Assembly (NCBI GenBank): GCA_030824555.1
Contig: JAVBXK010000022.1
Span: 62,001 to 126,000, forward strand
Length of the DNA: 64,000 nt
Reading direction: 5' to 3'
From: a bacterium
GTDB lineage: Bacteria; Pseudomonadota; Gammaproteobacteria; Burkholderiales; Burkholderiaceae_C
Part shown: positions 15,404-37,618 of the stretch, one piece after another
Position numbering within the stretch: position 1 is the first letter of the stretch
How the letters are laid out: each line of letters opens with the position of its first letter
Translations under genes and position numbers: made by a program
Notes under the pieces: model-generated
The model's input: the letters and a program-made list of their open reading frames with translations, nothing else
Database searches by the model: none
Told to the model about the DNA's origin: nothing

Positions 15404-15479
15404 TGGCTCCTCGACCTGGGCTCGAACCAGGGACCTACGGATTAACAGTCCGGCGCTCTACCGACTGAGCTATCGAGGA
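15404..15479 (-). tRNA. tRNA-Asn (GTT)
   Basis: On the minus strand a 76-base cloverleaf starts TCCTCGATAGCTCAG and ends TCGAGGAGCCA. The anticodon loop reads CTGTTAATC with anticodon GTT, and the T-loop is GGTTCGAGCC. The CCA end is encoded. The acceptor stem (TCCTCGA/TCGAGGA) differs from the second copy by one compensated pair. Confidence 0.96.
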
Positions 15480-15502
15480 AAATTCGGTACAACAGTGAAA
15501 TT

Positions 15503-15578
15503 TGGCTCCCCGACCTGGGCTCGAACCAGGGACCTACGGATTAACAGTCCGGCGCTCTACCAACTGAGCTATCGGGGA
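15503..15578 (-). tRNA. tRNA-Asn (GTT), second copy
   Basis: Almost identical to the downstream copy, with acceptor stem TCCCCGA/TCGGGGA, anticodon GTT and encoded CCA. One further difference lies in the D-loop (TTGG versus TCGG). The 23-base spacer indicates a common precursor transcript processed into two tRNAs. Confidence 0.96.
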
Positions 15579-34127: not shown

Positions 34128-35150
34128 TCAATCCCAGAACAGCAAGGCATCGCGCCCCTGCACCACCAAATCGACGGTGCGCCCCACGGGCAGCAACACC
34201 TTGGTGGACACGTGCCCGAAAGGCAATCCGGTCAGTACCGGCACGGACCTGCCACCATTGACCAATGTCGCACCCACAGCCTCCACAGCGAGCTGTGAAC
34301 GCAACCAATCCACCACCGTGGTCAATTTGAAGCCCCGGTCGTGCCCTTCCGCCAGTTTGTAACGGTTGAACTGGCCCAACACCACCGCCCGTTGCCTGCC
34401 CAGGATGCCCGCATGCAGCAGTTGCGTCAGCATGCGCTCGATTCTGAAGGGATGTTCGTTCACATCTTCCAGAAACAGGATGCCGCCCTCCACATGGGGC
34501 AAATAGGGGGTGCCGATCAACGAGACCAAGACCGACAGGTTGCCCCCCCACAGGGTGGCCTCTTCAACTGAAAAATCGCCTTTGTCAGCCGCAGACACAC
34601 GCCAGCCAGTGCCCTCGCCCTGCCCGCACAGCAGGTCATCGAAGCACGCCTCCATGATGTCGTCAGGCAACGGGTTGGCTTCATCACCCAGTTTCGGGTC
34701 AGCACCGAAATCTTCGCCCAGAGCTGGACCAGCCCACGTGACCGCGCCGGGGCCGAATGCAGGGGCAAGGTCGCCAACCTTCTGCTGTTGACGCTGCAGA
34801 TGCGCCATCAAACCCATCTGCAAGGCGGTGAAGTCGCTCAACCCGATCCACAACATGCCGCGCTCGATGGATTGGGCCATGGCGTCATACGGCAGTTGCG
34901 GCAGGATGCGTGTCAGCCCGTATCCGCCACGGGAGATCAAGGCCACGTCAGCACCGCTGGCCGCAGCGCGGGTGATGGCAGCCACACGGGTGGCATCGTC
35001 GCCAGCAAAACGCATGTGACTGCGTCGGGCATCGGCGTCCACTTCGACTTCATGCCCCAGTGCCTTCAACCTGCGGAGCCCTCGGGTGAAGGCGGCCGTG
35101 TCACGCACCGCACTGGAGGGCGAATAGATGTAAATGTGTTTGGTGTTCAC
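34128..35150 (-). CDS. ldcA: LD-carboxypeptidase (muramoyltetrapeptide carboxypeptidase)
   Basis: 340 residues. Removes the terminal D-Ala from murein tetrapeptides in the cytoplasm during cell-wall recycling (peptidase S66). Features: N-terminal IYSPSSAVRD, ISRGGYGLTRIL, the nucleophilic Ser in IGLSDFTAL, and later EGGILFLEDVNEHPFRIERML and GLPFGHVSTK, which supply the catalytic Glu/His positions of this family. It starts at GTG 35150. It is followed by an intergenic stretch of ~115 bases before the tadA fusion ends. Confidence 0.9.
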   Translation of the reverse strand: MNTKHIYIYSPSSAVRDTAAFTRGLRRLKALGHEVEVDADARRSHMRFAGDDATRVAAITRAAASGADVALISRGGYGLTRILPQLPYDAMAQSIERGMLWIGLSDFTALQMGLMAHLQRQQQKVGDLAPAFGPGAVTWAGPALGEDFGADPKLGDEANPLPDDIMEACFDDLLCGQGEGTGWRVSAADKGDFSVEEATLWGGNLSVLVSLIGTPYLPHVEGGILFLEDVNEHPFRIERMLTQLLHAGILGRQRAVVLGQFNRYKLAEGHDRGFKLTTVVDWLRSQLAVEAVGATLVNGGRSVPVLTGLPFGHVSTKVLLPVGRTVDLVVQGRDALLFWD

Positions 35151-35266: not shown

Positions 35267-36667
35267 TCAGTCAGTAAACCAGCGTTCGGCAACGGCCCTG
35301 CCCCATTCAGGCACAAAGTGACCGGCTTCGGGTATCAGCCACGGCTGTGCACAACCTGCTATCAGCGGGTATTGGTTGGACATCACATCCTCATCCCACA
35401 CAGGGTCCTGTTGTCCGATGGCCATGCGCGCCCGGCCAGTCCACGTGTGTTGCCAGAAGTCTTTTGCCGCTTGGGACACGGCCGCACCGTCGTCATATGG
35501 TTGCTCGGGCACAAGCGTCGGGAATGCACGCAATGCCGTGCAGTGTCCGCGATCAGGGAATGGGGCCTCGTACGCAGCGCAGGCCTGCGCGTTCAAAGCC
35601 GCCCTGCCACGAGACAACAGCCACGCCTTGCTACCCGGCTGCCGAGCGCCCTGCTCGCGCCAGACAAGAAACCCAAGCGGCAATGGCTGCTCACCCGTGG
35701 CCAACAGGGTGTTCATGACCAGCAAACCTGTGTAGCGATGGGGTGCCGCCATGGGCAACGTCAACCCCAGTGTGCCCCCCCAGTCGTGCACCACCAGCAC
35801 CACGTTGCGAAGGTCGAGGCGTTCCACCAGCTCCAGCAAAGCCGCCCTGTGCCAGCTGAAGGTGTGAGCGCGTTCTTTCTTGGGCTTGTCGCTCTTGCCG
35901 AAGCCGATCATGTCGGGGGCCACCACGCGCGCACCCGATGCAAGGAACACCGGGATCATATGGCGGTACAGGTAACTCCAGGTCTGGCCCCCGTGCAAAC
36001 ACAGGAATGTGGTTTGGGGTGCTCCACCCTCCCCTGCGGTTCGCGCGCCCTCGTCCAGGTAATGCATGCGCAGGCCGCTCAGGCTGGCCAGGTCGGATAT
36101 GTAATGCGCGGCCCAGGGGTAATCAGGCAAATGGGCAAACCGGCTGTCTGGGGTGCGCAGCGCATCGTCCCGAACAGGGTGGGCATTCAACCGCTTGGGG
36201 CGAAAGAATGCCTGCAAAAGCGATGCACCTTCAGCGGCCAGCACCCCCCCAGTGACCCGTGTCTGGTGGTTCAGGGTGGGTTGGGCAAACAGGTCGATCA
36301 CACCACCGGCCGCACCTGTCTTGCTGTCTGGCGCGCCAAACACCACGCGGTCAAGCCGCGAGTGCAGCATGGCGCCGCTGCACATGGCACAGGGCTCCAG
36401 CGTGACGTACAGGGTGCACCCCTCCAGCCTGTAGTTGCCCAAGGCCCGTGCCGCACTGCGCACCGCCACCATTTCTGCGTGTGCCGTGGGGTCATGGTCA
36501 CCAATGGGAGCATTGCGGCCGACACCGACGACCTGCCCCGCCTTCACCACCACGGCACCCACGGGCACTTCACCCGCTGCTGCGGCTTGTTGCGCCTGTG
36601 CCAGCGCAAGTTGCATCCAGCGGGTATCTTCGGTGCTTGCGGGCTGGTGGGGGGCAGGATGTGTCAT
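35267..36667 (-). CDS. tadA: TadA tRNA adenosine deaminase fused to a DhlA-like haloalkane dehalogenase
   Basis: 466 residues in one uninterrupted frame. Residues ~12-160 are TadA, which deaminates A34 to inosine in tRNA-Arg: zinc-site HAE (63-65) and PCAMC (92-96). From about residue 168 the sequence resembles haloalkane dehalogenase DhlA throughout: [18 protein letters not shown] (225-235), nucleophile Asp295 in HDWGG, halide-side Trp296 and Trp336, acid Asp421 and base His450. The oxyanion motif is HGGQTW where DhlA has HGEPTW. Bacterial TadA is normally about 150-170 residues, so this is a real domain fusion. Start ATG 36667 is chosen over TTG 36679. Confidence 0.9.
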
Positions 36668-36756: not shown

Positions 36757-37506
36757 TTGATCACCGAACCTTTCTTCTATTTCGTGGCCATTCCGGCCGT
36801 TTTCTTGCTGGGCCTGAGCAAAAGCGGGTTTGGCGCCGGCTTTGGTTCGCTGGGTGTGCCGTTGATGGCGCTGGCGGTGACCGTACCTGAAGCCGCCGCC
36901 ATTTTCATGCCCCTGTTGTTTGTGATGGATGTGTTGACGCTCAAAGCCTTTCGCAAAGAGCTGGACTGGGCGCTGTTTCGCTTCATGTTGCCATGGGGGC
37001 TACTGGGCATTGGCGTGGGGGCGTTGCTGTTCAAGGCGCTTGACTCGCACACCGTGGCTGGCGTGGTGGGCGTGTTTGCCTGGGTGTTTTTGGCACAGCG
37101 CAAGCTGTTTCCACCCCGGGCGGACTCCCCTCCCCCCGGCAAGTTATGGGGTGCGCTGATGACCACCACGGCGGGCTTCACCAGCTTTGTGTCGCACACA
37201 GGCGGCCCACCCATCAACGCGTATGTGATTCCGCTCAAACTGGCACCCACGGTGTTCACGGGCACGCTGGCGGCGTTCTTTTTTGCCATCAACCTCAGCA
37301 AATGGCTGCCCTACGCTTGGCTGGGCCTGCTGGACATGCGCAACTTTGGCACCTCGTTGGCGCTGCTGCCGTTTGCACCCTTGGGGGTGTGGGTGGGTGT
37401 GAAGGTGGCCCGAAAAATCAGCCCACTGTGGTTTTACCGGCTGGTGGATTGGGGTATGTTTTTGACCGGCGCCAAGCTGATTTGGGATGGCTTTTTGGCC
37501 AGATAG
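36757..37506 (+). CDS. TauE/SafE-like TSUP family permease
   Basis: 249 residues, a second TSUP-family membrane protein. The N-terminal GLSKSGFGAGFGSLGVP loop and the internal SHTGGPPINAYVIPL loop are family signatures, and eight hydrophobic segments are visible. The substrate is not known; sulfite or other small organic anions are possible. It starts with TTG 36757, with AGGA about nine bases upstream. It is divergent from the tadA fusion (89 bases) and followed by a hexanucleotide repeat. Confidence 0.85.
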   Translation: MITEPFFYFVAIPAVFLLGLSKSGFGAGFGSLGVPLMALAVTVPEAAAIFMPLLFVMDVLTLKAFRKELDWALFRFMLPWGLLGIGVGALLFKALDSHTVAGVVGVFAWVFLAQRKLFPPRADSPPPGKLWGALMTTTAGFTSFVSHTGGPPINAYVIPLKLAPTVFTGTLAAFFFAINLSKWLPYAWLGLLDMRNFGTSLALLPFAPLGVWVGVKVARKISPLWFYRLVDWGMFLTGAKLIWDGFLAR

Positions 37507-37524
37507 ACGTCAAAAAATGCCCCA

Positions 37525-37572
<48 letters not shown>

Positions 37573-37618
37573 AAACAATAGTTTGCTATGGAATAAAATA
37601 TATAGCAAACTATTTAAT
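37573..37618. repeat. Perfect 13-bp inverted AT-rich repeat
   Basis: AATAGTTTGCTAT (37577-37589) and ATAGCAAACTATT (37602-37614) are exact inverted copies around a 12-base AT-rich loop, directly after the hexanucleotide repeat. It is one of the cleanest members of the dispersed palindrome family and may also end transcription from either side. Confidence 0.6.

Follow-up and report, generated by a model that had tools for sequence, protein, structure and literature searches.

TadA, the tRNA A34 deaminase, is the deaminase used in base editors, and its described representatives (curated model NF008113; structures 1z3a and 2b3j) carry the motifs HAE and PCxxC. The TadA chains matched in the PDB comprise 144-183 residues (227 in an engineered one). 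Haloalkane dehalogenases (HLDs) of subfamily I include DhlA (which we take to be the enzyme of structure 1b6g), DppA (2xt0) and DpaA (7avr). HLD-I enzymes possess a Trp-Trp pair, and their nucleophile is placed on an elbow of strained backbone. Pseudoenzymes in general keep part of a fold at dN/dS below 1 after their catalytic residues have been lost. HLD subfamilies differ in their catalytic pentad, and the acid of HLD-I is Asp, according to PMC3938430; HLD pentads are also treated in PMC10619424. Among the matches listed in the open literature, no description of a TadA-dehalogenase fusion was found.

The window analysed here (64,000 nucleotides of contig JAVBXK010000022.1) encodes such a fusion in a single frame. 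The translation contains no internal stop, and its two parts pass the respective curated cut-offs, which bears out the reading of the earlier note that one frame of 466 codons holds TadA followed by an HLD. All positions given there for HAE, PCAMC, D295, W296, W336, D421, H450 and HGGQTW were also found to be correct. The first part resembles described TadA in comprising the whole domain, in its zinc and catalytic motifs (HAE 63-65, PCAMC 92-96) and in being the only match of the genome above the NF008113 cut-off, two others remaining below it (81.6 and 42.5 bits). Unlike the matched TadA chains, the window protein continues for approximately 300 residues after the TadA domain. For this tail, the best sequence relatives in the PDB are the haloalkane dehalogenases 2xt0 and 1b6g, named in the structure matches as DppA and as the enzyme of a chloride complex, respectively. 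The tail shares 43-46% identity with DhlA, DppA and DpaA, as well as the predicted fold, the triad and the two Trp residues, but differs from them in its fusion behind TadA, in the motifs HGGQTW and HDWGG, and in that many of its fused relatives have lost the triad. The predicted model of the window protein (mean pLDDT 86.9) displays an alpha/beta core with a helical cap in the tail, as supported by Foldseek. For this model and for that of a triad-less fusion (L052) pTM was 0.66, so that the placement of the two domains relative to each other is tentative in both.

Table 1. Features of the fusion locus, in window coordinates. The cut-offs applied were those of NF008113 for TadA and of NF002043 (PRK00870) for HLD.
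Feature	Position	Strand	Basis or remark
tadA-HLD fusion gene	35267..36667	minus	466 codons + stop; translation
TadA domain, residues 12-162	36182..36634	minus	NF008113, 200 bits (cut-off 150)
TTG codon, L160	36188..36190	minus	at the place where several intact relatives carry an internal ATG (apparent old HLD start); not preceded by a Shine-Dalgarno match of 4 bases or more
HLD-I haloalkane-dehalogenase domain, residues 168-462	35282..36166	minus	NF002043, 275.9 bits (cut-off 265); model and Foldseek
HGGQTW, residues 225-230	35978..35995	minus	H225 and W230 near-universal in relatives; usual residues at 227 and 228 are N and P, here G and Q
Residues 252-264 (13 residues)	35876..35914	minus	largely kept even without triad
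Nucleophile Asp295 in HDWGG	35783..35785	minus	intact relatives mostly QDWGG
Trp296, first halide-binding Trp	35780..35782	minus	motif reading
Trp336, second halide-binding Trp	35660..35662	minus	motif reading
PFPD, residues 369-372	35552..35563	minus	part of PxPDxG motif, which persists in triad-less copies
Catalytic acid Asp421 in QQDPVWDE	35405..35407	minus	intact relatives mostly xxDPVLGx
Catalytic base His450 in AGHF	35318..35320	minus	motif reading
ldcA, LD-carboxypeptidase (S66)	34128..35150	minus	Pfam; next gene downstream of the fusion

The fusion is widespread. Matches to the window protein were obtained in 147 of the 148 genomes searched, in 22 of them (the window's own included) over both domains. 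Identity over the two domains was 53-67% in the 21 other genomes, and in 20 of these no stop was counted within the matched region; many of the shorter matches were fusions as well, with divergent tails. When a family draw was searched with an alignment of divergent fusions, 382 of 399 genomes matched, with E-values falling into two separate groups, and fusion-like scores were recorded for 75 of 131 genera (214 of the 382 matching rows being tabulated). One TadA-alone score (G243) was due to a contig break splitting the fusion. Of the 80 nearest HLD relatives in a named set, 72 were fused in frame with TadA, while three were cut by contig ends and five stood alone. By record title, the genera carrying the fusion include Ottowia, Hydrogenophaga, Polaromonas, Acidovorax, Curvibacter, Rhodoferax, Limnohabitans, Caenimonas, Ramlibacter and Verminephrobacter, with the named isolates Ottowia beijingensis, Acidovorax facilis, Polaromonas jejuensis, Hydrogenophaga borbori, Limnohabitans parvus and Caenimonas sedimenti. 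An order draw yielded fusion scores in 14 of 399 genomes, namely 10 of the 12 listed genomes of family f1 and four of family f3; in a phylum draw (398 genomes, E up to 1e-60) no match over both domains appeared outside f1, only one domain being matched there. The domain pair is thus widespread in Comamonadaceae-type genera, where the earlier note had proposed to trace its conservation, and the pairing that the note had called functionally odd is no oddity. The same note had named a frameshift or an assembly error as what would overturn the fusion. However, the same frame is present in many genomes, including several that consist of a single contig (G009, G010, G021, G078, G079, G086), and in the named isolates, and no support for an artefact was found at the window copy. 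An artefact or frameshift is ruled out for this copy by the matches over both domains elsewhere and by the named isolates, which leaves this explanation a negligible probability.

In fused loci with room for a further gene, ldcA lies directly downstream in 186 of 200 cases; ten of the other 14 have no ldcA match and four have ldcA elsewhere in the locus. The same neighbour follows in all 17 TadA-only loci with room. These synteny counts include repeat fetches of some genes, while duplicates were dropped in the counts of distinct tails given below. Since ldcA is the neighbour in both fused and TadA-only loci, the HLD occupies one constant position, with tadA before it and ldcA after it. In the window, ldcA is adjoined on its other side by a gene for a GH5 cellulase (PF00150; 32945-34081), whose N-terminus appears lipoprotein-like by eye.

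A second TadA-HLD fusion is found in family f3 (L020, L021, L259, L260), in the same order before ldcA. In the HLD tree the fused f3 HLDs are placed beside a stand-alone HLD of Noviherbaspirillum. A single clade comprising all fused HLDs was rejected with an AU p of 5.6e-5, in a test that had four contig-edge rows among the fused ones and L258 left out of the tree, and with 0.0038 in a second test. Either TadA and HLD were joined twice in the same slot, or they were joined once and an f3-type HLD was later exported. Two genomes combine a stand-alone HLD from the clade of fused HLDs with another tadA state: one has a triad-less fused tail (G047; L112 with L077), the other TadA alone (G059; L113 with L078).

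The earlier note had also considered that the domains might be separate genes with an internal start, or that the fusion might be kept for expression reasons. Among the loci examined, none carried TadA and HLD matches (>60 bits) solely in different frames, no locus with two separate adjacent genes was encountered, and the 33 stand-alone HLD loci (most with only about 1.5 kb of flank) contained no TadA match. The internal start proved real in part of the family. An in-frame ATG in the linker is present in 39 of 158 distinct fusions (39/108 triad-bearing, 0/50 triad-less). A Shine-Dalgarno match of at least 5 bases precedes 19 of 42 linker ATGs at suitable distance; the corresponding figure for other in-frame ATGs in these genes is 33 of 1525. 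The counts for Shine-Dalgarno matches, dN/dS and retention draw on related sequences, so that the p values of 5.7e-19 and 4.4e-8 obtained in these comparisons are too small. In the four f3 genomes each internal ATG follows a GGAG-type, Shine-Dalgarno-like sequence (partly judged by eye). The linker ATG and its Shine-Dalgarno sequence look like what is left of a dehalogenase gene that formerly overlapped the tadA 3' end, with its own ribosome-binding site and start codon. One could imagine, then, that the sole importance of the fusion lies in joint translation of HLD and tadA, the active product being a free HLD made from the internal start. Such coupling would suit the 19 of 108 triad-bearing fusions whose internal ATG follows a Shine-Dalgarno match of at least 5 bases (25 at a minimum of 4 bases) and the arrangement in all four f3 genomes, and for fusions with both elements it could hold. 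Yet the linker ATG is absent from 69 of 108 intact and from all 50 triad-less fusions, and the window itself has TTG at this place, so that as a general account expression coupling appears improbable.

The catalytic triad was kept in 116 of 179 distinct fused tails and lost in 63. Because the nucleophile motif was part of the patterns used to find the named loci, intact copies are over-represented and this split is no estimate of prevalence; where sampling favoured intact copies least, the triad was lost in 27 of 46 readable family fusions, with L080 in addition. The nucleophile alone was missing from the triad in ten tails, in each case by exchange of Asp for Gly (codon GGC or GGG in the eight printed), and in some of these W296 was changed as well. 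In 53 tails (hereafter deep losses) more than the nucleophile was gone, mostly the cap and the C-terminal half. Triad-less tails measure 121-388 residues (median 241), compared with 280-331 (median 317) for intact ones. Frameshifts were dismissed as the source of most losses, given that just one of the 53 deep losses showed the missing C-terminal part as an out-of-frame remnant; a weak in-frame remnant was present in four. One deep loss (L046, "cut" in the TadA tree) has an in-frame stop inside the tail, with the triad absent beyond the stop too; it lies outside the sample of 46 and inside the sets of 53 and 50. Two further loci, L053 (whose sequence stops within the tail) and L061 (with TadA truncated at a contig boundary), entered none of the counts, and L258 is intact by its triad but poorly aligned, with W296 replaced and a long branch. 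An extreme derivative of the fused tail, despite its TadA-only score, is L080, where TadA is followed by 430 residues with a large insert and the motifs LREDALR, VHG and PYPDAGH, recognised by eye; it was treated as TadA-only in the TadA tree and as fused in the synteny count.

Both states of the triad occur within 6 of the 24 genera represented by at least two sampled genomes (g1, g16, g55, g176, g185 and, doubtfully, g183). The first of these is the genus of the window, whose three classified congeners are triad-less, as is a fourth by eye (L061). The TadA tree places 27 changes between intact and lost, with weak support, the starred branches forcing only 3-4. In these losses inside single genera, and in the attachment of the dead domain to TadA, the fused tails differ from pseudoenzymes in general.

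Across the 53 deep losses, 34 residues conserved in intact tails are retained at 85% or more (six more listed columns are shared gaps), and the motifs R.DA.R, H225, W230, D252-SDKPK and PxPD.G persist at 92-100%. All 53 retain A169, R171, H225, D252, G255, G257, S259, D260 and P262; R166, D168, G198, W230, K261, K263 and G374 are each found in 52, H268 in 51, H273, P369 and P371 in 50, and D372 in 49. The corresponding numbers for the catalytic residues are 6 for D295 and 2 each for D421 and H450. Many of the retained residues (DxxGxGxSDKP, LHG) are presumably general fold residues of this superfamily, and retention in triad-less tails may come only from the needs of folding. For L052 a folded core was predicted after TadA (mean pLDDT 87.4); the rows shown by Foldseek and VIA-align for this model were TadA-like or other deaminases matching its first domain, and thus barely probe the fold of the tail.

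Tail dN/dS ranged from 0.16 to 0.51 in 15 triad-less pairs and from 0.08 to 0.26 in 13 intact pairs, with 0.06-0.37 for TadA; the pairs share sequences, and L222/L244 is near saturation. The values below 1, together with the retained residues, indicate constraint on the triad-less remnant, weaker than that on the former enzyme. That intact tails are under selection about as strong as that on TadA argues for real enzymes in those copies. The faster evolution of triad-less tails is compatible with either partial decay or a new function.

Whole tails can disappear. In genus g32 one genome (G221, locus L318) encodes TadA alone, with a clean end after the TadA helix, while its relatives include an intact fusion (G037) and two genomes that score as fusions (G302, G370). 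The tail can thus be dropped, which speaks against a strict dependence of TadA on it. In the TadA tree L063, placed among fused rows, likewise has TadA alone; one clade unites 17 TadA-only rows, and it may represent the old state or a further loss.

These observations bear on the possibility that the tail is a mere passenger, i.e. that a dispensable dehalogenase became attached to an essential enzyme when translation ran through the tadA stop, and that the tail has decayed ever since, its fold being kept just to avoid aggregation. Decay of this kind would explain the higher dN/dS after triad loss, the wide length range of triad-less tails next to the narrow range of intact ones, the prominence of fold-type residues among those retained, the old HLD start with Shine-Dalgarno sequence still visible in some fusions, and both the clean loss in G221 and the stop within the tail of L046. 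A single stop after TadA would, however, suffice to remove the tail, and yet few TadA-only rows are seen besides G221, L063 and the clade of 17; nor does free decay readily account for nine residues that are invariant in 53 triad-less tails. We consider this alternative possible though short of probable, and decay limited only by folding stands close behind the account that we prefer.

The window copy is formally complete, with all five residues of the HLD-I pentad present (D295, D421, H450, W296, W336). Its HGGQTW site, which the earlier note had contrasted with HGEPTW (presumably the corresponding motif of DhlA), is indeed abnormal: among the 116 triad-bearing tails N227 occurs in 110 and P228 in 115. 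As fused relatives mostly have HGNPxW at 225-230, HGGQTW is unusual also within its own family. In total, five substitutions affect active-site motifs of the window tail (N227G, P228Q, Q294H, L424W, G425D). Three of the new residues are commoner in tails that have lost only the nucleophile: H294 (4/10, compared with 2/116 intact tails), W424 (2/10 and 1/116) and D425 (4/10 and 1/116). The window tail therefore lacks the surroundings N227, P228, Q294, L424 and G425 of intact relatives, a yardstick that is our own and not a published family definition; this lowers its claim to normal activity, not to HLD-I descent. Over 152 conserved columns it shows 19 deviations (13 substitutions and 6 insert columns), compared with a median of 2 for intact tails, and the only three intact rows deviating more are two from f3 and the doubtful L258. 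The best reading of the window copy is that of a formally complete but eroding outlier. Given the five altered active-site positions and the triad-less congeners, weak or no dehalogenase activity is therefore expected of the window tail, a prediction from sequence that we make with moderate confidence.

The earlier note had raised the possibility of a genuine bifunctional protein. On such a view the window tail would catalyse as an HLD-I-type hydrolase with a changed substrate while covalently joined to TadA, and the losses elsewhere would be irrelevant to it. Of this proposal, the genuine one-frame fusion and the HLD-I residues of the window copy stand, whereas bifunctionality fails as a general account, 63 of 179 tails and the congeners being triad-less. 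For the window copy itself, an active enzyme would agree with the complete set of catalytic and halide-binding residues, the score above the NF002043 cut-off, the DppA-like predicted fold (Foldseek TM 0.93 by target length), the strong constraint on intact tails, and the fact that the tail is the sole match above the HLD cut-off in the genome. The unusual residues at the active site, three of them commoner in nucleophile-lost copies, and the lack of the triad in three classified congeners and by eye in the fourth make an active hydrolase rather unlikely here.

Our preferred explanation, to which we assign a probability of about 0.57, is that a captured dehalogenase has been converted, repeatedly, into a non-catalytic module of TadA, and that the window copy is at an early stage of this conversion. 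What the sequences themselves establish is the fusion and its distribution, the losses of the triad, the retention of other residues, the internal starts and a dN/dS below 1. TadA would have captured the HLD-I gene downstream of it through loss of the stop between the overlapping genes, and the fused protein would since have been passed on as TadA. Some members of the family would still possess a complete hydrolase as tail, and some lineages may also make the tail alone from the old start. In many lineages catalysis, dispensable in the tail, would have been lost. An early hit was probably often the exchange of the nucleophile Asp for Gly, which would relieve the backbone strain of the nucleophile elbow, with loss of the cap and the C-terminal half probably following later. 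A folded core with fixed non-catalytic residues would be kept as part of TadA, its most likely role being structural, by stabilising or extending the TadA dimer or the tRNA-binding surface. On this conversion account the window copy, with its triad present, its surroundings eroding and the internal ATG absent, would act mainly as TadA with a weakly dehalogenating or non-dehalogenating tail. More tentatively, and as a reading that we find on the doubtful side, the hydrolase core might be a standing part of TadA for tRNA binding, dimer stability or regulation, catalysis having been shed as unneeded or harmful. If this were true, the joining of the same pair in the same ldcA slot in f3 would mean a favoured partnership.

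The family offers a natural series from complete enzyme to dead core on an essential protein, and as the losses lie within single genera, close pairs allow testing how an enzyme domain becomes a structural part. Matches labelled "haloalkane dehalogenase" in Comamonadaceae are often TadA tails, many of them without catalytic residues, a point to be kept in mind when genomes are mined for dehalogenases or surveyed for bioremediation. The tail also represents a natural C-terminal extension of TadA that may alter its stability or RNA binding.

Two further features of the window were noted. A tRNA search within the window returned not tRNA-Arg(ACG), the substrate of TadA, but two adjacent tRNA-Asn(GTT) genes (15404-15578, minus strand). 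Just after a TauE-like gene, an open reading frame at 37146-37574 ends in approximately 15 Cys codons, encoded by a short tandem repeat (37520-37574).
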